The notes beneath the pieces are model-generated. The model was not told the origin of the DNA and searched no databases. It worked only from the letters and a program-made list of their open reading frames with translations. A program made the translations under genes and the position numbers. Source: Larsenimonas rhizosphaerae (GTDB lineage Bacteria > Pseudomonadota > Gammaproteobacteria > Pseudomonadales > Halomonadaceae). Taken from it: a stretch of 64,000 bases of DNA. Positions 35,350 through 57,864 of this stretch are shown here, in pieces (positions within the stretch are counted from its first letter, which is position 1; every line of letters begins with the position of its first letter). Location: contig NZ_JAMLJK010000001.1 of assembly GCF_023700005.1 (NCBI RefSeq), forward strand, positions 1,079,366-1,143,365. Direction: 5' to 3'.

Positions 35350-35826
35350 TCAGGGCAGGGGCAGGTTGAGAAGATGTCGTCCAGCCCAGAAAATGGCGAT
35401 GGTGACGATCAGCGGCAAGGCCACATTGAACAGCCAGTGACGCTCGCCCAGCAGCCAGGCCAGCACGATACCGATCGTGGCCACGGTAATGATGAAGCCC
35501 AGCATCGGCATGGTTGCCAGGGCCACGGCCATCAGCATCATGACGAAAAGCACGCGGATCCAGCTGACAGCCGGGCCGATGGCGGTCTCGGCCGTTCGGC
35601 GATGGCGCCACAGTCGAAGCACGGCTCCCAGGGCCAGTAGCCATAGCACCAGCCTGGGGAAGAAGCGTGCATCCGGGCCCGGGTCGCCAAAGTCAAACAC
35701 CGTCACCTGATCGTGGAGGGTCAAAAGTCCGATGGCTGCGACGAGCAGGATGCCGAGGCAGGTGCAACCTTGCAGGCCAAATCGAGGCATGCGGCGGTGG
35801 GAGGATGTGTTCGTGTCGATGCTCAT
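35350..35826 (-). CDS. tctB: TTT-family small permease (TctB)
   Basis: 158 residues with four hydrophobic segments. The motif FDFGDPGPDARFFPRLV is the usual TctB pattern after the first helix. It overlaps the upstream tctC by 4 bp (ATGA). Confidence 0.88.
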   Translation of the reverse strand: MSIDTNTSSHRRMPRFGLQGCTCLGILLVAAIGLLTLHDQVTVFDFGDPGPDARFFPRLVLWLLALGAVLRLWRHRRTAETAIGPAVSWIRVLFVMMLMAVALATMPMLGFIITVATIGIVLAWLLGERHWLFNVALPLIVTIAIFWAGRHLLNLPLP

Positions 35827-45588: not shown

Positions 45589-46749
45589 TCAGCGGTGCCG
45601 GGCCTGGTGTGCATGCCACTGACGTATGCCGAAGGTCCAGGGGGGGAGCCGGTCCGAGCGGTCCACGCGATTGACCAGTGCGCCCAGGGCTGGGGTGGCG
45701 ATGGTGACGAGGTCACCCACGTGATGCGTAAAGCCTTGTCCCTCGCCATCACGATCCAGAATGGGAGAGAACATGGTGCCGAGAAACAGCATGAAACCAT
45801 CCGGGTACTGGTGATGTGGGCCCACGGTCTGGCGGACAAGATCCAGTGGATCACGGCTGATCTGGCGCATGTCGCTTGAGTCATCAAGCACGAAACTGTC
45901 ATCGGCGCCTTCGATACGCAGTGAAACCCGTGCCTGGCGTACCGTATCGAGGGTGAAGTGTTCATCGAAGAGACGAATGAAGGGGCCGATGGCACTGGAG
46001 GCGTTGTTGTCCTTGGCCTTGCCCAGCAGCAGGGCGCTGCGTCCCTCGATGTCACGCAGGTTGACGTCATTACCCAGCGTCGCGCCTCGTGGCTGACCGG
46101 TAGCATCGACGGCCAGTACGATCTCGGGTTCGGGGTTGTTCCATCGTGATGACGGGTGCAGGCCTACGCTACTGCCAAAGCCCACTGACGAGAAGGGTTG
46201 TGCCTTGGTGAAAACCTCGGCATCCGGCCCGATGCCGACTTCCATGTACTGAGACCAGACGCCCCGTTGCTGCAGTTCTGCCTTGAGCGCCAGCGCCTCA
46301 TCGGAGCCTGGAACCATCTGCGACAGGTCGCTGCCGATTACGGTCTGCAGCTCCTGGCGCAACGCGGTGGCATGAGCAGCGTCACCGGCTGCCTGCTCCT
46401 CGATGACTCTTTCCATCAGGCTGACGGCAAAGGTTACGCCGCAGGCCTTGATGGCCTGTACATCGCAGGGAGCCAGCAGATAGGGCGCGTGCGGGGAGGA
46501 TGACAGCGAGTTTTCCAGCAGTGATTCGATCGAGCCCAGTGACTCGCCCTCGGCCCGGGCAACCACGGCGGTGGCATCATCCCGGTCCAGCAAATCGGCC
46601 ATACAGGCGCAGGTGGACGTGATGTCGATGACCTCGCCGTTTCGAATCACCACGATGGCAGGCCCCGACTGGTCAGGCGTTTCGCGCCATACCCGCCCGG
46701 CCAGCAGTGCGCTTTCCAGGTCTTCGGGAAGAAAGGTTGTAGTATGCAA
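45589..46749 (-). CDS. xylX: 2-keto-3-deoxy-D-xylonate dehydratase (FAH family)
   Basis: 386 residues if translated from the TTG at 46749, which has CGAGG eight bases upstream and gives the family length; an in-frame ATG at 46884 would add 45 basic residues read from a hairpin region. The sequence is very close to Caulobacter XylX as I know it: LKACGVTFAVSLMERVIEE-like segment, LWSQYMEVGIGPDAEVFTK-like segment, RWNNPEPEIVL, GNDVNLRDIEGRSALLLGKA and KDNNASSAIGPF. XylX dehydrates 2-keto-3-deoxy-xylonate to 2-oxoglutarate semialdehyde in the Weimberg pathway. An L-arabonate equivalent is possible. Confidence 0.88.
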   Translation of the reverse strand: MHTTTFLPEDLESALLAGRVWRETPDQSGPAIVVIRNGEVIDITSTCACMADLLDRDDATAVVARAEGESLGSIESLLENSLSSSPHAPYLLAPCDVQAIKACGVTFAVSLMERVIEEQAAGDAAHATALRQELQTVIGSDLSQMVPGSDEALALKAELQQRGVWSQYMEVGIGPDAEVFTKAQPFSSVGFGSSVGLHPSSRWNNPEPEIVLAVDATGQPRGATLGNDVNLRDIEGRSALLLGKAKDNNASSAIGPFIRLFDEHFTLDTVRQARVSLRIEGADDSFVLDDSSDMRQISRDPLDLVRQTVGPHHQYPDGFMLFLGTMFSPILDRDGEGQGFTHHVGDLVTIATPALGALVNRVDRSDRLPPWTFGIRQWHAHQARHR

Positions 46750-46798
46750 AAGGATTACCTCGACGGTTTGTCGCGCGAGATGCGTTGGTGTGTATCTG

Positions 46799-46839
46799 CG
46801 AGGCTGCCTGCGGTACCCCAGCGTACGCAGGCAGCCTCG
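46799..46839 (-). other. Strong hairpin in the xylX leader
   Basis: A 14-bp perfect stem (CGAGGCTGCCTGCG / CGCAGGCAGCCTCG) with a 13-base loop, about 50 bp upstream of the TTG start. It has no T-run. It may be the end of the ROK transcript, an attenuator or a mRNA-stability element. Confidence 0.6.
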
Positions 46840-46940
46840 AACAGACCGGTTTTTCATAGTGAAAGACCGGGGAAGTAAGTTCAATCTGTTTACTTATTCG
46901 GCTGCGCCAACTTTAGTCTACGTGGCGCCTCGCAGGGTAT

Positions 46941-46975
46941 CGGGCGTGATCATGCGGCTGCGCTGATCACGCCCG
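46941..46975 (-). terminator. Hairpin directly after the ROK regulator gene
   Basis: A 12-bp perfect stem (CGGGCGTGATCA / TGATCACGCCCG) with an 11-base loop starts 3 bp after the stop codon. No T-run follows. Confidence 0.6.
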
Positions 46976-46978
46976 AGT

Positions 46979-48199
46979 TCAGGACGAACCGTGGGTGGCC
47001 TGTGGCAGGGCCTGATCATGGATGGCTCTGGCCAGCACCTGGGCAGCTGCGCCCCGGGCAGCCACGAAGGTACTGTCTTCAATGACGCGTAATGAAACGC
47101 GCTGTGCGGTTCCCAGCAGGCGGTGCTGATGGGCTTCAAAATAGGTGAGGGCGGGGTCAAGAAAGAGGGGCCCCAGCCGCGTCAATGAACCGCCCAGAAC
47201 AATTTCAGCAGGGTTCTGGGTGTGATGCAGGTTCAGAAGCAGCATGCCCAGTGCCTCTCCGGCGCGGCGAAGGGTGTGCACTACCATCGGTTCCTGCAGG
47301 CGAGGTGTCAGCCTGTTGATCAGGTCATCCTTCTCGTCAATGCCCAGGGTGGCACGGATCGACCAGCCGCTGACAAGGGTTTCTGCACACCCCCGGTTAC
47401 CGCAATGACAATAAAGTCCGCCCGGCTGCAGAACGGTATGGCCGATTTCTCCGGCCAGCCCCTGAACGCCTCGCGTGAGCAGTGGCAGGTGCCTGCCCTC
47501 CGCCAGACCACTGCCGATCCCGGTGCCGGCGCTTACGTAAAGCAGGGACTCCGGGATCGCGCCGGTTCGGAAATAAAGCTCGCCAAAGGCCGCGGCCTTG
47601 GCTTCATTGTCCATCAGCCAGACGCCTGTGGCCTCAGGCAGGTGCGGGCGCAGTAACTCCATGAAGCGCACATCATGCCAGCCGAGGTTGGGCGCTCGCC
47701 GCAGCACGGCTTCATCGGTGGCAATGGTGCCTGGCAGGGCCACGCCGATTCCCAGACTGTCCCTGTGCTGCAGGGACGTGCGGTGCGTGAACTGCCGCAA
47801 TAGCTCACCCAGCGACGCGGCTGTGGTGTCGGGTGTCGTACAGGGGAAGGGTTCATGCTGTGTTTCAAGCACCTGGCCGGAGGGGGCACAGGCCACGAGC
47901 CGCAACCCGTGTACGCCCACTTCGGCACCCAGCAGGTAGTAGTGGTCATCGTTCAGGTGCAGGGCGCGCCCCGGCCGGCCACCACTGCTTTTCTGCAGCT
48001 CTCCTTCCTTCAGCCATCCCTGGTTCAGCAACGACTGAACGGCTGTGCCTACCGTGGCCTTGGTCAATTGTGCCTGGGTAGCAATATCGGCGCGCGTTAC
48101 TCCCGGTGCGCGCCGTACTGTCTCGAGGATGGCGCTTAAGTTCAGCCGCTTGAGAAAGTTGAGATCGCCCGCCTTTTGATTCTGGTAACTGCCTGGCAT
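46979..48199 (-). CDS. ROK-family transcriptional regulator (XylR/NagC type)
   Basis: 406 residues: an N-terminal winged helix (GVTRADIATQAQLTKATVGTAVQSLL) followed by a ROK sugar-binding domain with the zinc motif CHCGNRGCAET and the GTGIGSGLAEG loop. ROK repressors release DNA on binding a sugar or sugar acid. Placed between xylX and the divergent xylB, it is the probable regulator of the xylose genes. The weak Shine-Dalgarno (GAGGG at -17) suggests low expression. Confidence 0.9.
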   Translation of the reverse strand: MPGSYQNQKAGDLNFLKRLNLSAILETVRRAPGVTRADIATQAQLTKATVGTAVQSLLNQGWLKEGELQKSSGGRPGRALHLNDDHYYLLGAEVGVHGLRLVACAPSGQVLETQHEPFPCTTPDTTAASLGELLRQFTHRTSLQHRDSLGIGVALPGTIATDEAVLRRAPNLGWHDVRFMELLRPHLPEATGVWLMDNEAKAAAFGELYFRTGAIPESLLYVSAGTGIGSGLAEGRHLPLLTRGVQGLAGEIGHTVLQPGGLYCHCGNRGCAETLVSGWSIRATLGIDEKDDLINRLTPRLQEPMVVHTLRRAGEALGMLLLNLHHTQNPAEIVLGGSLTRLGPLFLDPALTYFEAHQHRLLGTAQRVSLRVIEDSTFVAARGAAAQVLARAIHDQALPQATHGSS

Positions 48200-48509
48200 G
48201 AATAAAGTGAACCCTCTACGGCCTGTTCCGGTGGCTGAACGTGAATCTTATACAGTTTCATGACGAAATTCCCTGCCTGGTGCCTGCACTGAAGAGGCAG
48301 TATTCGGCAGGTGTGTCGTGATGTATCACCTGTCTGATTACGTTAACCCTATGTCGTATGGTTGTCCTGACATCATGAATTGATAATCGCCACTTAGTAA
48401 CAAGACTATACCAAGTGGCCCGTACCCGATGGTGGCGTTGAGCATCTCCCCATGGTGGAAGGGTTCCTGCATACCAGTGCTTTCTCTTTCATGGATGGTG
48501 GAGTGACTT
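48200..48509. promoter_or_regulatory. Divergent ROK-xylB control region with a candidate operator
   Basis: This 310-bp spacer holds both promoters. The inverted repeat GCCACTT (48389-48395) and AAGTGGC (48413-48419), separated by 17 bases containing AGTAACAAGACTAT, is the best operator candidate for the ROK repressor. It lies about 90 bp upstream of xylB. Confidence 0.5.
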
Positions 48510-49247
48510 ATGGGTACAGCAATCTATCCCGGTCTTGCAGATAAACGTGTCGTGATTACCGGCGGCGGTTCCGGCATTGGTGCCGGCCTGGTCGAAGCCT
48601 TCGTCGAGCAGCAGGCCGAGGTTCACTTTCTGGACATCTGTGAAGATGAGTCCCGAGCGCTGGTCGAACGGCTGGCGGGCCATGCGACCTTCCATTTGTG
48701 TGACCTTACTGACCTTCACGCCCTGGTGGAAACGTTCAGGCACATCGGTGCGGTTGATGTGCTGATCAATAATGCTGCAAACGATGACCGTCATACCCTG
48801 GGGGACATTACGCCGGATTACTGGGATGAGCGGGTCGCGGTGAATCTGCGTCATGTGATGTTTTCCATGCAGGCAGTGGCTCCAGGCATGAAAACACGCG
48901 GCGGCGGAGCCATCGTCAACCTGGGCTCGATCAGCTGGCATCTTGGCCAGGAGCATCTGGCCATCTATGAAACGGCCAAGGCAGGCATTGAGGGCATGAC
49001 GCGTGCCATGGCCCGTGAGTTGGGCGAGGACGGCATTCGCGTGAACTGTGTCATTCCGGGCAACGTGAAAACGCCTCGCCAGTCCAGATGGTACAGCCCT
49101 GAAGATGAGCAGAAGATCATCGATGAGCAGAAGCTCAAGGTCCGCATTCATCCCCACCATGTCGCCAGCATGGTGACCTTTCTGGCCTCTGACGCTGCGG
49201 CTGCCTGTACTGCCCACAATTACTGGGTCGACGCCGGCTGGCTTTGA
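48510..49247 (+). CDS. xylB: D-xylose 1-dehydrogenase (NAD+), short-chain dehydrogenase
   Basis: 245 residues. SDR motifs: TGGGSGIG at 17-24, NNAAND at 87-92, catalytic S140/S142 (NLGSISWH), Y153 and K157 (YETAKAG). The whole sequence follows Caulobacter XylB closely as I know it (IYPGLADKRVVITGGG, YWDERVAVNLRHV, VNCVIPGNVKTPRQ, the end NYWVDAGW). It oxidises D-xylose to xylonolactone, the entry to the Weimberg pathway. L-arabinose is sometimes also a substrate. First gene of xylB-symporter-xylD. Confidence 0.92.
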   Translation: MGTAIYPGLADKRVVITGGGSGIGAGLVEAFVEQQAEVHFLDICEDESRALVERLAGHATFHLCDLTDLHALVETFRHIGAVDVLINNAANDDRHTLGDITPDYWDERVAVNLRHVMFSMQAVAPGMKTRGGGAIVNLGSISWHLGQEHLAIYETAKAGIEGMTRAMARELGEDGIRVNCVIPGNVKTPRQSRWYSPEDEQKIIDEQKLKVRIHPHHVASMVTFLASDAAAACTAHNYWVDAGWL

Positions 49248-49305
49248 ATCATCTCACCGCATCACGCGTTCCATACGATAACGACACGTTTTCCGGAGCA
49301 ATACC

Positions 49306-50712
49306 ATGACAAGTGACATGACACGCAAGCGTGGCCTGTACGTATTCGGTATTTCCTGTATTGCCGCCATTGGCGGGTTCCTGTTCGGGTTTGACAGTGG
49401 GGTTATCAACGGTACGGTCGATGGGCTTCAAAGTGCCTTCGGCTCCGACAGCGTCGGTACGGGCTTCAATGTTGCCTCGATGCTGCTGGGGTGCGCCGTA
49501 GGGGCCTTTTTTGCCGGTCGGATGGCGGATCGTCTTGGTCGCAGGACACTATTGATCATTGCGGCGGTCTTCTTTCTTGTCAGCGCCTGGGGGTCCGGCA
49601 TTGCCGGTGGGTCACTGGCGTTTGTGATGTATCGCGTACTGGGCGGAATGGCTGTTGGCGCTGCCAGCGTGATTGCTCCTGCCTATATCAGTGAGGTGGC
49701 TCCCGCGGCTTACCGCGGGCGGCTGGCAACGATTCAACAGGTTGCGATCGTGCTGGGACTGTTCGTGGCCTTTCTGAGTAACTACACCCTGGCCAACATG
49801 GCCGGTTCATCGGTGGCTGCGCTGTGGTTCGGGTTTGCCACATGGCGCTGGATGTTCTGGATTGAAGTCTTTCCGGCGGCGGTGTTTCTGATCGCGCTGA
49901 TGTTCATTCCGGAGAGCCCGCGTTACCTGATGAGTGCCGGCAAGATCGACAGGGCGCGCGGAGTGCTGGGCAAGCTGCTGTCGGATGAAGAGGTCAATAC
50001 CAAGCTTTCCGAGATCGAGGGATCGCTGGCCAGCGATCATCAGCCGGGCCTGCGTGATGTCATCAATAAAGCGACGGGCAAGGTGCATGGCATCGTGTGG
50101 GTGGGGATCGGTCTGGCTGTCTTCCAGCAGCTGGTGGGCATCAACGTGGTGTTTTACTACGGCGCGGTCCTGTGGCAGTCCGTTGGGTTTTCCGAAAACG
50201 ATGCGCTGCTGATCAATGTGATTTCAGGCGGGGTAAGCCTGGGCGCGCTGGTCATTGCCATTACCTCCATTGATCGTATTGGCCGCAAACCACTGCTGTG
50301 GATCGGCTCATCGGGCATGGCACTGACGCTGATGGCCATGGCCTACGCCTTTTCGACCGCGAGCATGGTCGATGGCTCCCTGCATCTGTCCGATGGGATG
50401 GGCATTGTTGCACTGCTGGCCGCCAACGCGTACGTGCTCTTTTTCAATGTGTCCTGGGGGCCGGTCATGTGGGTCATGCTGGGGGAGATGTTTCCAAATC
50501 AGATGCGTGGGTCGGGGCTTGCCATCTCCGGTCTGTTCCAGTGGCTTGCCAACTTTGCGATCACCATCAGTTTTCCGATCATGCTGGCAGCCATCGGGCT
50601 GGCGGGTGCCTATAGCATTTATGCCTTCTTCGCCGTGGTCTCGATCTTCTTTGTCGTAAGGTTTGTCAGGGAAACCCGTGGCAAGGAGCTCGAAGCCATG
50701 TCCTACGAATAG
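49306..50712 (+). CDS. Sugar/H+ symporter (XylE/GalP/AraE-like MFS)
   Basis: 468 residues with 12 helices. Sugar-porter motifs: FGFDSGVINGT, GRMADRLGRRT, PESPRYLM, QQLVGINVVFYYGAVLW and DRIGRKPLLWIG. It imports a monosaccharide with a proton. Its position between xylB and xylD points to xylose. GGAG precedes the ATG. Confidence 0.93.
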   Translation: MTSDMTRKRGLYVFGISCIAAIGGFLFGFDSGVINGTVDGLQSAFGSDSVGTGFNVASMLLGCAVGAFFAGRMADRLGRRTLLIIAAVFFLVSAWGSGIAGGSLAFVMYRVLGGMAVGAASVIAPAYISEVAPAAYRGRLATIQQVAIVLGLFVAFLSNYTLANMAGSSVAALWFGFATWRWMFWIEVFPAAVFLIALMFIPESPRYLMSAGKIDRARGVLGKLLSDEEVNTKLSEIEGSLASDHQPGLRDVINKATGKVHGIVWVGIGLAVFQQLVGINVVFYYGAVLWQSVGFSENDALLINVISGGVSLGALVIAITSIDRIGRKPLLWIGSSGMALTLMAMAYAFSTASMVDGSLHLSDGMGIVALLAANAYVLFFNVSWGPVMWVMLGEMFPNQMRGSGLAISGLFQWLANFAITISFPIMLAAIGLAGAYSIYAFFAVVSIFFVVRFVRETRGKELEAMSYE

Positions 50713-50858
50713 GGCTTGTACCGGCGCATCTGTCTTGAGGGACAGGTGCGACGTTTCCTGATTTCAGGCCAGTCCGGCAGACAGGGAAGTCTTGCCGGAA
50801 TCACCCGGGGCCTGTTGATACATCACACCATTCCCGATTTTTCCGCCAGGGGTTACAT
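50713..50858 (+). other. Spacer with hairpin between symporter and xylD
   Basis: A stem CCGGCA-GAC / GTCT-TGCCGG at about 50774-50798 (one bulge) lies between the two genes. It could tune xylD expression relative to upstream genes. Confidence 0.4.
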
Positions 50859-52664
50859 ATGCGCAATTCAGAACACAGGATCACTCCGGACCAGCTGCGT
50901 TCACGGTGGTGGTTCGATAACCCCGAGCATCCGGGCACTACAGCGCTGTGTATCGAGCGGTACATGAACTATGGCATCACCCTGGAAGAACTGACCAGTG
51001 GCCGGCCCATCATCGGCATCTGCCAGTCGGGCTCGGATCTGACGCCATGCAATCGCCATCACATCGAGCTGGTGAAGCGGGTGAAGGAGGGGATCCGTGC
51101 TGCCGGTGGCGTGCCCTTCGAGTTTCCATTGCATCCGATTCATGAAAATGCCCGCCGTCCGACGGCAGCGCTCGATCGCAACCTGGCGTACCTGGGGCTG
51201 GTCGAAGTGCTTCATGGTTACCCGCTGGATGGGGTCGTGCTGACCACCGGATGTGACAAGACCACCCCTGCCAGCCTGATGGCCGCCGCGACGGTCAATA
51301 TCCCGGCGATCGTGCTTTCCGGCGGGCCGATGCTCAATGGCTGGCATGGCAACGAACGGGTGGGGTCCGGTACGGTGGTGTGGGAAATGCGCAAGCGCCT
51401 CGCGGCCGGCGATATTGATTACGCCGAATTTCTGTCGCGGATTACCGATTCCGCCCCTTCGGTAGGCCACTGCAATACCATGGGTACTGCCTCCACCATG
51501 AACTCCATGGCCGAGGCGCTGGGCATGAGCCTGCCTGGTTCGGCCATGATCCCCGCACCTTACAAGGAGCGGGCGATGGTGGCTTATGACACCGGTACAC
51601 GGATCGTTGACATGGTGTGGGAGGATCTGCGGCCCAGCGATATTCTCACCCGTAACGCCTTTGAAAATGCCATTTGCGTGTGTTCGGCGATCGGGGGGTC
51701 GAGCAATGCACCGATTCACATCAATGCCATTGCCCGGCATACGGGGGTCGCGCTGACCAATGATGACTGGCAGTCAGTCGGCCACGATATCCCCCTGCTG
51801 GCCAATATCATGCCTGCCGGGGCCTACCTCGGTGAAGAGTTTTACCGGGCCGGCGGGGTGCCTGCCATCCTGCATGAGTTGCTGGCTGCCGGTCGACTTC
51901 ACGGTGAGTCTCTGACCGTCAATGGGAGGACGCTGGCAGCCAATATCCTTGGGCGTGAGACGCGGGATCCGGAAGTGATCCGTCGGTACGATAATCCCCT
52001 GGTGGACCGTGCCGGCTTCCTGAACCTCAAGGGCAATCTGTTTGATTCCGCCCTGATGAAAACCAGCGTGATTTCCGCGGGCTTTCGTCAGCGGTTTCTG
52101 AGCGACCCCGATGATCCGAATGCCTTTGAAGGCCCGGTGGCGGTCTTCGATGGCTCCGAGGATTATCATGCGCGTATTGATGATCCCCGGCTGGATATTG
52201 ATGATCGGACAATTCTTGTCATGCGCGGTGCCGGCCCGATAGGGCACCCCGGTGGCGCCGAGGTTGTGAACATGCAGCCCCCTGAAGCATTGATCAGGCG
52301 CGGCATCGAAGCGCTGCCCTGTATTGGTGACGGGCGCCAGTCAGGGACGTCCGGCTCGCCATCGATTCTCAATGCCTCTCCGGAAGCCGCCGCAGGCGGC
52401 GGGCTGTCGTTGCTCGAAGATGGTGATCGGCTGCGCGTCGATCTCGATCGGGGAGAGGTCATGCTGCTTGTTGATGATGCGGAACTGGTGGCTCGGCGGG
52501 GGCGCCTTGAACAGCAGGGCGGGTATCGTTATCCGGCCCATCAGACGCCCTGGCAGGAAATTCAGCGCACTCTGGTCGAGCCCCTGGATCAGGGCATGAC
52601 CCTGAAAGGCGCCACCGAGTATCAGGATGTCGCGCGCCAGAGTCCGCCCCGGGATAATCACTGA
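50859..52664 (+). CDS. xylD: D-xylonate dehydratase (IlvD/Edd family)
   Basis: 601 residues. The three Fe-S cysteines of the family are C64 ([11 protein letters not shown]), C132 ([10 protein letters not shown]) and C205 ([12 protein letters not shown]). Full-length resemblance to Caulobacter XylD includes [41 protein letters not shown] and the end with NH. It dehydrates D-xylonate to 2-keto-3-deoxy-xylonate, the substrate of XylX. Related enzymes accept L-arabonate or D-gluconate. Confidence 0.93.
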
Positions 52665-52999: not shown

Positions 53000-54004
53000 T
53001 CATGAATGCCTCACTGATGAAGCCCTTGGTATCAGGCTGGGCATGGCTAGCCGGATACAGTCGGCTCCCTGTGGTCTCTCGCCCAGCAGCAATTCGATAG
53101 CCTGGTGGGCGACATAATCCAGGGGGATGTGAACCGATGTCAGCGCCACAGGCAGACGACTCGCCAGTGGTATGTCGTTGTAACCGACCAGCGAGAGCGA
53201 TGAGCCAATGCTGATGTCGAGGCGATGTGCGGCAGCCATTACCCCGATGGCCAGGTTGTCATTAACTGCAAAAAGTGCCGAGGGGCGCTGCTGCTGAGAG
53301 AGGATCTGGTATCCCGCCGTTTCGCCGGCCTCTATCCCGAAACCTGACTCCATGACCCAGTCTTCATGTACCGAAACGCCGGCTTCCTGCATGGCGCGAC
53401 GATAGCCTTCCTGACGGTCCCTGGCACTGGAGGTAAAGCCTGGTCCTGCAACCAGCCCGATGTCGCGGTGGCCGAGATCGAGCAGGTGACGAGTGGCGAG
53501 ATACCCCCCCTGGATGTCGTTACCCAATGAAGAGGGGCTGATGCCGTCGGTTCGCAACACCAGCGCGTGTGGCACCCCCTGGTCGCGCAAGCGTGAGGGT
53601 AATTGATCATCGAGCCGGCTGGTCGCCAGAATCAAGCCGTCCACGCGCCTGTTCAGGAGTGATTCGGCGGCCAGGCGTTCGCTTTCCGGGTCGTCGCCGC
53701 TGGTCGCCACGATGGCGAAGTAATGGCGCTCCATGGCGGCGCGTGCGATTGCTTCATAAATGAGTGCCATCACCGTGTCACTCAGTCTCGGCACCAGAAC
53801 GCCGATGGTGCCGGTACCTCCACGCCGCAGGCTGGAGGCGAGTATGTCCCGTTTATAACCCAGCTCTTTGGCGGCCTCCCGGACCCGCTGTGCAGCGCGG
53901 CTTCTGGATGGCGGAAGGCGCTCGTCCAGTACTCGAGAGACGGTTGATGTACTCACGCCAGCCGCCCTGGCCACGTCATGCATGGTTATCGGTTTGTCAT
54001 TCAT
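53000..54004 (-). CDS. LacI-family transcriptional regulator
   Basis: 334 residues from the ATG at 54004 (MNDKPITMHDVARAAGVSTS); an ATG at 54037 is in frame but precedes the conserved start. HTH TMHDVARAAGVSTSTVSRVLDE and the hinge region LGYKRDILASSLRRG are followed by a periplasmic-binding-like domain (SRLPVALTSVHIPLDYVAHQA). Divergent from the lyase-transporter-porin operon, which it probably represses. Confidence 0.92.
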   Translation of the reverse strand: MNDKPITMHDVARAAGVSTSTVSRVLDERLPPSRSRAAQRVREAAKELGYKRDILASSLRRGGTGTIGVLVPRLSDTVMALIYEAIARAAMERHYFAIVATSGDDPESERLAAESLLNRRVDGLILATSRLDDQLPSRLRDQGVPHALVLRTDGISPSSLGNDIQGGYLATRHLLDLGHRDIGLVAGPGFTSSARDRQEGYRRAMQEAGVSVHEDWVMESGFGIEAGETAGYQILSQQQRPSALFAVNDNLAIGVMAAAHRLDISIGSSLSLVGYNDIPLASRLPVALTSVHIPLDYVAHQAIELLLGERPQGADCIRLAMPSLIPRASSVRHS

Positions 54005-54220
54005 TGATGTGGTGATCCATGACGGAAGGAATATCAAACATTCCTTGAAGTTGAAGTCTTTCGTGCCTGCGCGCTAACGGCACTCCACACGATTCTAGCG
54101 ATTCACACGCCATCTTATAAGCGCGAGACCGGCAATTCGGTCATGGGGAGGCTATCGGCGCTTCCTGCAGCGTAATTGAATCCTGAGACCATTGTCGTAT
54201 TTGAACGGTCGGGTATTGAT

Positions 54221-54253
54221 GGAACGATGTGCAAACGTTCCCAGTAACGTTAC
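54221..54253. promoter_or_regulatory. Candidate LacI-type operators
   Basis: Two palindromes lie just upstream of the lyase gene: GGAACG (54221-54226) with CGTTCC (54236-54241), and the perfect 10-mer GTAACGTTAC (54244-54253). The second has the central CG typical of LacI-family operators. Both are within 60 bp of the ATG, fitting repression. Confidence 0.55.
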
Positions 54254-54280: not shown

Positions 54281-55198
54281 ATGTCACTCGATCTCAGAGG
54301 TCTTACGCCTGCACCGGTCACTCCCTTCACCCGCGATGGTGAAATCGACTATGACGGCATCAAGAAGGTTGGCGCCTGGCTGGGCGGTATCGATGGTGTC
54401 AAGGGGCTGGTCGTGTTGGGCCATGCCGGTGAAGGCACCTTCCTCACGTCCGACGAGCAGACACGTGTCATCGAGGCTTATGTCGAGGCGGTCAAGGGGG
54501 AGGTACCGATCATCGCGGGCATCACTGGCGAAGGCGATCATGTGGCTTCCGAGGAGACCAGGCGAGCGGTCAAGGCGGGGGCCACGGCGGGGCTTGTCTA
54601 TCCCTCTCATGGGTGGCTGCGTTTCGGGTATCAGGACGGGGCACCGCAGGAGCGCTATCGACGCATCCATGAAGAGAGCGGCATGCCGCTGATCCTGTTC
54701 CAGTACCCGGACAACACCAAGGCAACCTACAACCTGCAGACCCAGCTCGATATTGCGGCCCAGCCGGGGGTCTTCGCGATGAAGAACGGCGTGCGCAACA
54801 TGAAGCGCTGGGACACGGAAATTCCGGTGATCCGTGAGCAGAACCCCGATCTGCAGATCCTGACCTGCCACGATGAGTACCTGCTTCACACCATGTTCGA
54901 TGTCGATGGGGCGCTGGTCGGCTACGGCGGTATCGCTCCCGAGCCGCTGATCGAGCTGATCAAGGCCGGTAAGGCGAAGGATTATGCCAGAGCGCGTGAG
55001 CTTCACGATCGCCTGATGCCGGTGACCAAAAGCGTCTATCACCGTGGTTCGCACATGGAAGGCACGGTGGCGCTGAAGTGGGCGCTGGTGGCACGCGGTG
55101 TGCTTGAGCACGCGACGGTGCGGACACCGCTGCGCCCGCTCGCCGAAGGAGCCGACAGGCAGATCGCTGATGCCATGCGTCAAGCGGGACTCGTTTAA
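54281..55198 (+). CDS. DapA/NAL-family lyase (dehydratase or aldolase of a 2-keto-acid)
   Basis: 305 residues of the dihydrodipicolinate synthase / N-acetylneuraminate lyase superfamily. The Schiff-base lysine is K168 (FAMKNGVRN), the tyrosine Y142 (LILFQYPDNT), and the pyruvate-binding loop HAGEGTFLTS. It is not biosynthetic DapA by context: a LacI regulator, transporter and porin surround it. Relatives act on 2-keto-3-deoxy sugar acids or 5-keto-4-deoxyglucarate. The exact substrate cannot be assigned. Confidence 0.85.
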   Translation: MSLDLRGLTPAPVTPFTRDGEIDYDGIKKVGAWLGGIDGVKGLVVLGHAGEGTFLTSDEQTRVIEAYVEAVKGEVPIIAGITGEGDHVASEETRRAVKAGATAGLVYPSHGWLRFGYQDGAPQERYRRIHEESGMPLILFQYPDNTKATYNLQTQLDIAAQPGVFAMKNGVRNMKRWDTEIPVIREQNPDLQILTCHDEYLLHTMFDVDGALVGYGGIAPEPLIELIKAGKAKDYARARELHDRLMPVTKSVYHRGSHMEGTVALKWALVARGVLEHATVRTPLRPLAEGADRQIADAMRQAGLV

Positions 55199-55230: not shown

Positions 55231-55316
55231 TGCCTCGGTGATGCCGTCAAATATCACCGTCTCGCCAGATTCATCCATTCCATCATTCCTACAACAAGAG
55301 CTATCAGGAGCGTGTG

Positions 55317-56585
55317 ATGAACTCTCATACCGAGCGGGACCGCGACTCGCTGTCCTCATCGACCTCGGGCCGGCCCGGGTTGTCTCTATCCTTGCCGCAA
55401 ATGCTGGCCCTCATGGGACCGGCTTTCGTGGCAGGTGCCTGGCGATTTGGCCCCGGCGCGCTGACATCTGCCGTCCAGGCCGGTAGCCAATATGGCTATG
55501 TACTGCTCTGGGTTATTCTCGTCTCGGCGATTCTCATGTTCGTCTTCAATGACATGGCGGTCCGTCTGGGGCTGGCATCGGGCGACTCGGTCGTCGCAGT
55601 GACCAAGCAAAAGCTTGGACGTCCGGTCGGCGTGATGGCGGGGTTCGGTGTCTTTGCGATCACCTTGATGTTTGCCGTCGGCAACGCGGTCGGGTCGGGC
55701 CTTGCACTAAGTCTGCTGCTGGGTGGTTCGGTCGTCGGCTGGACACTGGCTTGTACTGTCGCTGTTGGGCTTCTTATTGCCATGCGCAATACCTATAAGG
55801 CAATGGAGCGGTTGCTGGTGGCACTGATCGGGCTGATGTCGGTCGGTTTCCTGGCATCGACGATCTTGAGCGACCCTGACTGGGCAGCAGCGGCCAAGGG
55901 GCTGATACCGCAGATGCCCGCTGAGGCTGGCGTGCTGTTGATTGCTCTCATTGGAACGAATTTCTCGATAAATTCGGCGTTCTATACAGGTTATGCCATT
56001 CACGAGCGGCAATTAAAGCGCGAGCAATATCGTGCCATTACGTTGATGGATACCTTGCCGGGCAATATGGCGACAGCTTTCATGGCCATGCTGATCATTA
56101 TCGTGGCGTCGGCCGTGCTCAACTCCACTGGTACCGTGGTAACCACGTTTCCACAGTTGGCAAGCGTGCTTGAGCCGCTCGCGGGACGGCTGGGTTCCAT
56201 CCTGTTCGGCCTGGGTTTTTTTGCGGCGGCTTTCTCGTCGATGGCGGCCAACGCGTCGGCCGGTGGAACACTGCTGGCGGATGCCCTGGGCTGGGACAGT
56301 AGCCTTTCGACCTGGCGCGTCAAACTCCTGGTCTACGGTGTTCTGGCCTGGGGCGCGGTGGTGACCGTGATCTCCGAGGGATCGCCCATCGAGTTGATCA
56401 TCGTGGCCCAGGCGTTGACCGTTCTGGTCGCGCCCTTCCTCGGCATCATCCTTTTCCTGTTGACGCAACGTCGTGACGTGATGGGAGACCTCAAGAACGG
56501 CCCATGGCAGACCGGGTTTGCGATTCTGGGACTGATTGCCATCTTCGCCATCTCATTCCGGCTGATTTTCAGGCTTCTGGGCTGA
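55317..56585 (+). CDS. Nramp-related transporter lacking the metal-binding residues
   Basis: 422 residues and about 11 helices in the Nramp (MntH) fold. ATG at 55317 with AGGAG upstream; a GTG one codon earlier is in frame. In metal-transporting members helix 1 carries DPGN; here the same place reads GPGA (residues 45-48). Helix 6 normally has the Met-Pro-His motif; here it reads TNFSINSAFY (214-223). Without the Asp, Asn and Met ligands, Mn2+/Fe2+ transport is unlikely despite the usual database name. The neighbourhood suggests an organic acid substrate. Confidence 0.82.
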   Translation: MNSHTERDRDSLSSSTSGRPGLSLSLPQMLALMGPAFVAGAWRFGPGALTSAVQAGSQYGYVLLWVILVSAILMFVFNDMAVRLGLASGDSVVAVTKQKLGRPVGVMAGFGVFAITLMFAVGNAVGSGLALSLLLGGSVVGWTLACTVAVGLLIAMRNTYKAMERLLVALIGLMSVGFLASTILSDPDWAAAAKGLIPQMPAEAGVLLIALIGTNFSINSAFYTGYAIHERQLKREQYRAITLMDTLPGNMATAFMAMLIIIVASAVLNSTGTVVTTFPQLASVLEPLAGRLGSILFGLGFFAAAFSSMAANASAGGTLLADALGWDSSLSTWRVKLLVYGVLAWGAVVTVISEGSPIELIIVAQALTVLVAPFLGIILFLLTQRRDVMGDLKNGPWQTGFAILGLIAIFAISFRLIFRLLG

Positions 56586-56652: not shown

Positions 56653-57864
56653 ATGCAACCACGCATTTCACGCCACCGCTCGCCCCTCATTCTGGGTGCC
56701 CTCATGCTGTCATCAAGCGTGCCGGCGCTCGCTATCGACTTCGATGTGCAGAACACCAAGGTGTCGGTCTACGGATATGCCAAGCTCGATATCATGTATG
56801 ACATTGGCAATGTGAAGTCTGGCAACAGCGATGGGCTGGGCGACAGCGTCAATTTCGGCAAGATCGCGGTGGATGGCCAGCCGAGCACGGATGGACATTC
56901 GAACCTGAGCGCGGGTGAATCCAGGATCGGTGTCCGCACCACTACGCCCACCGCAAAAGGGGATCTGGTCACCAATATCGAAGGGGATTTCTTTTTCGGT
57001 GATTTCCGTTTGCGTCAGGCCTACGGTGCCTGGAATGGGCTCCTGGCCGGCCAGACCTGGAGTAATTTTCATACGTTCATCAGCACGACGCCAACATTGG
57101 ACTTTACCGGGCCCGCCGGGCGCGATGCATTTCTACGCCAGGCCCAGCTGCGTTACTCGTTCGGGAACTTCCATATAGCGTTGGAGGACCCCGGTGGCGT
57201 CATGTCGGGGGACTCCTTCGATGGAGGGTATAGCGCCTCCAATGGTGCGAAATCCATTGCCGGTACCGACGTCGACCGCAAGGATGGCCTACCTGACCTC
57301 ACTCTGCGTTATGAGTCCAGCGCCGGTCCGGCGAAATGGTCCATGGCGGCCCTGCTACGCGAAGTGGCCTTCGATTCCGGAGGGGAGGAGGACTCTACGC
57401 TGGGTTGGGGGCTCTTCGTGGCGGGAAGCTACGCCATCACACCATCTACCACGATCCGTGGTCAGCTGACGGGCGGCAAGGGCATCGGTGCGTATATGAA
57501 GGTCAACCCTGCTCCGGCGGCCTACCGGGTAGGCAATCACCTTGAAACAATTACTGCCTGGGGAGGCTCGCTCGGCATCAGTCAGGACGTCGGGCCCGGC
57601 ACCTTCAGCGTCTCCTATTCCCGTGTCGAAGCGGACTGGGACAAGGCAAGGCGCGATGGCGTGTCGTTGGTCGATACCGATAATGCCGGTGGATTCGTCG
57701 ATGCCTACGATAAGGTGCATGAGCTGATCCACGTCAATTACCTTTGGAGCCCTATCGAGCGTGTTACCTACGGGATCGAGCTGGCGCATGCCATGCGTGA
57801 AACCGTGGACCAACGCGATGGACGTGTCGATCGAATTCAGGGAAGTGTCATTTATGAATTTTGA
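56653..57864 (+). CDS. DcaP-type outer-membrane porin
   Basis: 403 residues with signal peptide LGALMLSSSVPALA, then KVSVYGYAKLDIMYDIG, RIGVRTTT, GQTWSNFHTF and FLRQAQLRYSFGN, typical of DcaP-like trimeric porins, and a C-terminal Phe (GSVIYEF). DcaP porins take up dicarboxylates and other negatively charged solutes. Last gene of the LacI-controlled unit, followed by a terminator. Confidence 0.85.
   Translation: MQPRISRHRSPLILGALMLSSSVPALAIDFDVQNTKVSVYGYAKLDIMYDIGNVKSGNSDGLGDSVNFGKIAVDGQPSTDGHSNLSAGESRIGVRTTTPTAKGDLVTNIEGDFFFGDFRLRQAYGAWNGLLAGQTWSNFHTFISTTPTLDFTGPAGRDAFLRQAQLRYSFGNFHIALEDPGGVMSGDSFDGGYSASNGAKSIAGTDVDRKDGLPDLTLRYESSAGPAKWSMAALLREVAFDSGGEEDSTLGWGLFVAGSYAITPSTTIRGQLTGGKGIGAYMKVNPAPAAYRVGNHLETITAWGGSLGISQDVGPGTFSVSYSRVEADWDKARRDGVSLVDTDNAGGFVDAYDKVHELIHVNYLWSPIERVTYGIELAHAMRETVDQRDGRVDRIQGSVIYEF

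Follow-up and report, generated by a model that had tools for sequence, protein, structure and literature searches.

A predicted organic-acid importer of the Nramp-related group in a lyase-porin cassette of Larsenimonas rhizosphaerae

Within a 64,000-nucleotide stretch of the Larsenimonas rhizosphaerae genome, here referred to as the window, a membrane protein of the Nramp family with all four metal ligands replaced is encoded together with a DapA-superfamily lyase, a DcaP-family porin and a LacI-family regulator. From sequence comparisons we consider it likely that this carrier is an inner-membrane importer of an organic acid that the adjacent lyase cleaves or dehydrates; the acid would probably be sugar-acid-like or a 2-oxo/hydroxy carboxylate. 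We favor acid import because of the ligand loss, the conservation of the cassette, its common regulator and operator, and the exchange of the carrier for others at the same place. The features concerned are as follows.

53000-54037, minus strand: divergent LacI-family regulator (PF00356, PF13377)
54234-54251, plus strand: predicted LacI operator AACGTTCCCAGTAACGTT, 29 bp before dapA
54281-55198, plus strand: DapA/N-acetylneuraminate-lyase superfamily enzyme (PF00701, 118.9 bits)
55317-56585, plus strand: Nramp-related membrane carrier (P0001), 422 aa, with GPGA in TM1 and SIN in TM6 (PF01566)
55449-55460, plus strand: codons of residues 45-48 (GPGA), the site of the canonical DPGN by alignment
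55965-55973, plus strand: codons of residues 217-219 (SIN), the site of the canonical MPH by alignment
56653-57864, plus strand: DcaP-family outer-membrane porin (PF19577, 75.5 bits)

The carrier and its metal-site residues

The carrier, for whose reading frame (55317-56585) an alternative GTG start is possible at 55314, spans nearly the full Pfam Nramp profile (PF01566; 248.5 bits versus a cut-off of 29.8). It falls under the cut-offs of the NCBIfam MntH model (156.3 bits; cut-off, 430) and of the TIGR01197 metal-ion model (60.7 bits; cut-off, 272.5). A separate canonical MntH is encoded in the same genome (contig 1, 580037-581083) and reaches 566.2 bits with the MntH model (cut-off, 430) and 378.2 bits with TIGR01197; in our tree, the canonical MntH set forms a separate group (100/99), with the carrier outside it. 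With 116.2 bits, the carrier is over the looser cut-off (50) of NF037982, "Nramp family divalent metal transporter," and thus fits the usual database name. This model is also passed by motif-less proteins from hydantoinase- and heparinase-linked haloarchaeal loci and therefore does not separate the canonical from the motif-less groups. A third Nramp match in the genome was set aside: at 22 bits it is below the cut-off, and it overlaps a 556-aa open reading frame that, by eye, resembles a sodium/solute symporter.

A 30-sequence MAFFT alignment, with residues numbered as in E. coli MntH, revealed substitutions of all four metal ligands (D34 to G45, N37 to A48, M209 to S217, and H211 to N219), of proton-path residues (E112 to N123, D109 to A120, and H216 to T224) and of the TM7 asparagine (N250 to A257). 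The metal-site glutamine is retained (Q353, corresponding to Q365 in the carrier). A sequence-only reading of this DNA had noted GPGA in place of DPGN and the replacement of Met-Pro-His, and the alignment bears out both (GPGA and SIN). The carrier is hence over the PF01566 cut-off and devoid of the TM1 and TM6 metal motifs and the proton-pathway residues, as are the proteins termed Nramp related. The hydrophobic stretches comprising residues 104 to 122 (TM3) and 204 to 222 (TM6) are free of charged residues, and that of TM1 contains no acid and one arginine (Arg43), which is a glutamine in two Neorhizobium-type relatives (L047 and L095, described below).

In TM1, phmmer comparisons with solved Nramps agree with the MAFFT register. 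The register of TM6 is less sure: MAFFT and the phmmer alignment to 10ky leave it ungapped, but hhalign and some of the phmmer comparisons with DraNramp introduce gaps. The ungapped version is anchored by intermediates such as IGTTVVPYNLFLHS. The same reading had asked whether the ligands might be present in shifted positions. According to the alignment they are not, and since the whole carrier contains only two histidines (residues 4 and 229), a His ligand has not simply moved to another position. The AF2 model, built for the carrier from 10 sequences, has a mean pLDDT of 34.7, and no argument rests on it; viral contigs scanned for a deeper alignment contained no relative.

The best solved match of the carrier is 10ky (E value of 5.9e-30), which is probably BfraNramp. 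Both 10ky and MntH/DraNramp share whole-length homology with the carrier, at about 25% identity in the profile alignment, but they hold the four metal ligands, all of which are replaced here. We regard it as unlikely that the carrier is still a divalent-cation transporter, moving Mg2+ as NRMT does or Mn2+ as claimed for YcsG and so supplying a metal to the pathway. Its Pfam membership and its NF037982 score would be in line with such a role, but the aligned site offers no acidic or sulfur ligand, and the genome has its own MntH. Furthermore, 7qia, which we take to be EleNRMT, keeps the TM1 Asp (NDAGG) and the TM3 Glu (SEF), whereas the carrier has G45 and N123. NRMT and NRAT carriers were described previously (PMC10115441), and according to the available text of that report, the NRMT/NrmT Mg2+ carriers resemble our protein in having lost the Met and the proton pathway. 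A further report (PMC13060092) deals with the role of the Met position in specificity.

The cassette, its lyase and its regulator

That the carrier gene lies between a DapA-family lyase and a DcaP-type porin, with a LacI regulator present, had been proposed before and is now confirmed by Pfam matches; one solved relative of the porin was found, the DcaP-like protein 6eus (E value of 1.8e-6). The genes are separated by 118 bp (lyase-Nramp) and 67 bp (Nramp-porin). No terminator-like sites were found between the cassette genes; the three that were detected (3.3 expected by chance) are all located inside the Nramp and porin genes. A GC-rich hairpin lacking a T run was seen by eye in the lyase-Nramp gap, and a search of the cassette region for promoter-like sites found none. 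The cassette genes are likely to form a single transcript. Next to one of the other cassettes (L033) there is a dehydratase gene whose product is 33% identical to the dehydratase of the window.

Two other regions of the window are of note. Upstream of the cassette and separate from it, positions 45589 to 52664 hold a D-xylose cluster with its own ROK regulator and, by eye, an FAH-like protein; it encodes a D-xylose 1-dehydrogenase (421 bits; cut-off, 400), a sugar-porter MFS protein and an IlvD/EDD dehydratase and looks like an oxidative (Weimberg-type) pathway. Between positions 35823 and 45078, several tripartite-tricarboxylate-type binding proteins and a TctA-like permease, with reading frames assigned by eye, surround amidohydrolase- and dehydrogenase-like genes, forming another organic-acid uptake region.

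The Schiff-base lysine of the lyase, Lys168, is retained in all 14 orthologues aligned. In alignments to solved DHDPS, the catalytic Tyr of those enzymes is matched by Phe140 and their GTTGE by GHAGE. Five histidines (residues 48, 110, 197, 254, and 258) are invariant in the 14 orthologues and make a metal-dependent lyase conceivable, which would suit a cation carrier; the retained lysine is of the class I type and speaks against one. AF2 predicted, from four sequences, a low-confidence barrel (59.1; pTM of 0.65), and the 50 Foldseek matches shown for it are N-acetylneuraminate lyases and DHDPS alike, so that the model does not name the reaction. Members of the DapA superfamily act on 2-oxo acids, such as N-acetylneuraminate and 2-keto-3-deoxy sugar acids, and our guess of a sugar-acid-like substrate derives from this. 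Since the lyase is the single enzyme in the halomonad cassette, its products should feed central metabolism directly. Among the literature matches listed, PMC9162365 included, the accessible text named no substrate for the lyase.

A conserved AACGnT...AACGnT site was recognized in aligned regions before 12 lyase genes. The corresponding pattern, AWCGWTYSCVNNAACGWT, has one match in the window (54234-54251) and none in 100 shuffles. In nine genomes it was found 12 times, in eight of them (the reversed pattern, once), and in 8 of the 9 the predicted operator is located 26 to 69 bp before the lyase gene. The remaining matches comprise one before a divergent MFS gene (G1081) and three elsewhere; genome G834 has no exact match. 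The pattern was defined partly from four of these nine genomes, and the site precedes the lyase gene in four of the other five. In the 19 non-halomonad loci with a LacI protein, it is encoded next to the lyase and is 55 to 68% identical to that of the window; this holds for loci with Nramp, MFS, DcuA/B and TRAP carriers alike. In 5 of 33 lyase loci, those of Burkholderia, Acinetobacter, Microvirga, Cupriavidus, and Azoarcus, a LysR gene takes the place of lacI. The common LacI protein and operator thus indicate that, where LacI is present, cassettes of the Nramp type and of the MFS/Dcu type share a single type of regulon.

Distribution of the cassette and exchange of its carrier

Among 275 genomes of the family, the Nramp protein (E value of ≤1e-40) was found in nine and the lyase (E value of ≤1e-80) in the same nine. 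The gene order LacI/lyase/Nramp/porin recurs in loci L029 to L033 and L025, which span Aidingimonas, Vreelandella, Halomonas, Salinicola and one further genome; for L032 and L033, it was established by direct tblastn. One copy is broken (L034, genome G781), and that of genome G645 is split, with a contig end (L035/L104) stopping inside the Nramp gene and the remainder lying with the porin gene on L027, where a transposase-like gene is found beside the Nramp gene. In a close-clade scan of GTDB species genomes, 11 relatives were recovered, 7 in halomonads and 4 remote ones (25 to 27% identity). The lyase was matched in 78 plasmid records, in 52 of them at 60 to 80% identity; 9 of these 78 records and 9 of the 31 with an Nramp match were inspected. 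Two other families, by likeness to named records probably rhizobial and enterobacterial, have it in 4 of 199 and 7 of 198 genomes. A lyase-plus-Nramp query from L102 matched 14 of 5,426 E. coli genomes, among the matches listed through the lyase part only. Two E. coli loci (L114 and L115), annotated by family names, contain a LacI/DapA-lyase/FAH/DcuA-B cassette, beside which MFS and carbohydrate-porin genes lie in divergent orientation.

While the orthologous lyases are 64 to 78% identical, the slot that the carrier gene occupies in the window holds different proteins in different genomes. An MFS gene is found there in Burkholderia, Acinetobacter, Klebsiella, Agrobacterium, Cupriavidus, and Azoarcus, and MFS genes are also found beside the lyase gene in Rahnella, Neorhizobium sp. 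EC2-8, and two further genomes; the best model for the six MFS proteins scanned was the aromatic-acid/H+ symporter, with 213 to 240 bits and thus below its 419-bit cut-off. Other lyase loci have DcuA/DcuB-type or TRAP carriers in the slot (the Klebsiella Dcu protein belongs to PF03605 and the L097 permease to PF06808, TRAP DctM). On a Neorhizobium petrolearium plasmid (L047), an Nramp protein 54% identical to that of the window is encoded beside an orthologous lyase and LacI, and genome G834 (L095) has an Nramp 87% identical to the L047 copy; the two are 52 to 55% identical to the carrier of the window. In two genomes (2 of 20 in the genus), a more distant Nramp (26 to 27% identity), also with GPGA, is located directly beside the lyase. 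Two loci (L101 and L103) have a lyase orthologue and no adjacent carrier, and in Microvirga (L052) a gene for a hypothetical protein and hydantoinase/oxoprolinase genes come next.

The lyase tree comprised 33 rows, from which L034, L027, and L104 were left out and in which L035 stands for G645. Carriers were labeled by hand; L052 was assigned to TTT although hydantoinase-type genes come first, and L101 and L103 were labeled "other." The rows include 10 with the main Nramp type (8 halomonad rows, L047, and L095), 2 with the distant type, 10 with MFS, 6 with DcuA/B-type, 1 with TRAP, and 1 with TTT carriers, in addition to 2 carrier-less loci and 1 outgroup. The lyases of L047 and L095 fall into a cluster with lyases from loci that have MFS or TRAP carriers (100/100), and the halomonad lyases form another (99/100). 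The Nramps of these two loci, in contrast, are sisters of the halomonad Nramps (100/99); it follows that carriers were exchanged. The best lyase tree contains three changes between Nramp and other carriers, two of which are forced by supported branches for the main Nramp type. An AU test did not reject a single clade for all lyase-linked Nramps (P = 0.248), so that the distant Nramp may form one clade with the others rather than mark a second, independent recruitment.

We regard carrier exchange in orthologous cassettes as the strongest sequence-based evidence that the protein may import an acid. The MFS, DcuA/DcuB, and TRAP carriers are of families unrelated to Nramp, but they occupy the same slot beside an orthologous lyase, often with an orthologous LacI and operator. 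That orthologous lyases, many of them with an orthologous LacI, make use of such carriers also speaks against a cation transporter. A role as a mere passenger, with the Nramp gene traveling with the cassette without a function there, appears very improbable. It might account for the patchy distribution (9 of 275 family genomes), for the broken L034 copy and for the transposase-like gene beside L027, but not readily for copies that are 82 to 91% identical to that of the window in unlike flanks, for two very different Nramps in the slot or for the three carrier changes at the slot, two of them forced for the main type. We also think it quite unlikely that the protein transports an organic acid other than as an importer of the lyase's substrate, for instance, as a product exporter or a substrate/product antiporter. 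The sequence does not reveal which way the carrier works, and DcuA/DcuB-type carriers, which are found in the same slot in other genomes, can act as exchangers; in the halomonad cassettes drawn, however, the Nramp protein is the only inner-membrane carrier, and an importer is needed.

Assuming import, the DcaP porin would admit the acid through the outer membrane and the Nramp-related carrier would take it across the inner membrane by the rocking-bundle mechanism of the LeuT fold. The acid would bind where TM1 and TM6 are broken, at the site that accommodates Mn2+ in canonical Nramps, and would subsequently be converted by the lyase; an inducer, either the acid or a product, would free LacI from the operator before dapA. 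We counted the following against acid import: the NF037982 score, the Mn2+ import reported for YcsG together with the ligand loss in its Bacillus badius relative (see below), the retained Q365, the five LysR loci, the possibility of one clade for all lyase-linked Nramps, the carrier-less L101 and L103, the neighbors of Microvirga L052, the lack of an exact operator in G834, the hairpin in the gap and the absence of a promoter-like site. Of the earlier proposal, the organic-acid carrier is strongly supported by the conservation of the cassette, the operator and the replacement by MFS, DcuA/B, and TRAP proteins; a link to the xylose genes upstream falls away, as the cassette has its own LacI and recurs without these genes in the loci drawn.

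Nramp-related proteins in other contexts

A published tree gives Nramp-related proteins without the TM1 and TM6 motifs a more basal position than the metal-transporting Nramps, to which they are paraphyletic (PMC12873925), and an outgroup within PF01566 is described in PMC9606685 and PMC10606218. As far as the available texts of PMC12873925, PMC9606685, and PMC4072509 go, this outgroup resembles our carrier in belonging to PF01566 and in lacking DPGN, MPH and the proton-pathway residues. Few substrates are named for it in these texts, whereas for the carrier described here a class is indicated by the conserved cassette and the carrier exchange; furthermore, the TM3 Glu, called ancestral in the outgroup papers, is an Asn in our protein. 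Motif loss thus already defines a known group, and the carrier is not unprecedented. The sequence-only reading had called it Nramp derived; given the published tree (PMC12873925), it is more likely that the metal carriers, and not the motif-less proteins, are the derived ones. It had also considered the substrate class unusual for the fold, but PxpT of Corynebacterium glutamicum is reported as a likely 5-oxoproline carrier, needed for growth on this compound, without metal transport being excluded (PMC13274462). Nramp proteins in sugar-acid operons did not feature in the accessible text of any of the literature matches listed.

YcsG of Bacillus subtilis, which is tied to 5-oxoprolinase genes, was reported to raise cellular Mn2+ and argued to be an importer (PMC10448178), and this favors a cation carrier. 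Like our protein, PxpT and YcsG are PF01566 proteins whose genes are reported to belong to an operon for organic-acid catabolism with its own repressor. In Bacillus badius, a motif-less relative resembling YcsG is encoded beside pxpA; it also has GPG in TM1 and lacks the ligands. It differs in its motifs (GPGF and GGY versus GPGA and SIN) and lies far from our carrier in the tree, on a very long separate branch (5.76) whose placement is weak (65/24). Searching 14 lyase loci by tblastn with E. coli PxpA, PxpB, and PxpC gave no match, while all three were found in the B. badius control. Because YcsG reportedly raises Mn2+ and the B. badius relative is also without ligands, ligand loss does not exclude metal transport. 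The YcsG report, as far as its text was available, is the best argument against over-reading ligand loss, and our case rests more on the cassette and the exchange.

Nramp trees of 30 and 26 rows unite the window clade with L047/L095, the distant Nramp found beside the lyase and two haloarchaeal Nramps in one group (98/98 and 99/97), although long branches were flagged and the deeper joins are therefore unsure. In all 10 rows of this group, the TM1 Asp is replaced by Gly and the TM6 Met by Ser. The sister haloarchaeal type occurs in eight plasmid records, of which four were inspected; genes for Gfo/Idh/MocA oxidoreductases are near in all four, and three have heparinase-like or FAH genes: two contain FAH-family genes, and the third contains a heparinase-like gene together with a sulfatase-like one. 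The proximity of these relatives to sugar-type oxidoreductases and the PxpT precedent, as reported, support acid import.

The branch with GPG-x in TM1 and Ser at the Met position was found in halomonads, a Neorhizobium, enterobacteria-like genomes and haloarchaea. We lean, with some reserve, toward the view that it consists of importers of sugar acids or organic anions that are interchangeable in one regulon type with MFS, DcuA/B, and TRAP carriers. If this holds true, the Nramp site would serve small solutes in general, with metal transport as one specialization. In the records inspected, relatives are annotated as "Nramp family divalent metal transporter"; on the comparisons made here, "divalent metal transporter" is very probably the wrong label for the carrier of the window. 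With one porin, one carrier, one enzyme and one repressor, the halomonad cassette should lend itself to identification of the substrate through a simple screen for growth or binding. Mg2+ carriers were reported in PMC4072509, the available text of which restates the idea of the outgroup as a possible link between carriers of nonmetal substrates and metal carriers; the identity of the substrate would put this idea to the test.

Motif-less relatives are also encoded beside hydantoinase/oxoprolinase genes in Halocatena and Haloarcula, at L057 (5007-10554) and L058 (5001-9829), where the haloarchaeal Nramp-related genes (GPGT and VGY) adjoin genes for hydantoinase/oxoprolinase A and B. By analogy with PxpT, it is possible that the L057 and L058 proteins are carriers of hydantoin- or oxoproline-like compounds. 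No such neighbor was recognized for the motif-less relatives of L063, L066 to L070, and Pseudoalteromonas L059. Finally, a further motif-less type (GPGS and PPN) is present in two genomes of the window's own family (L064, 5967-7331; L065, 5936-7252), where it adjoins genes that, by eye, resemble those of cobalamin biosynthesis.
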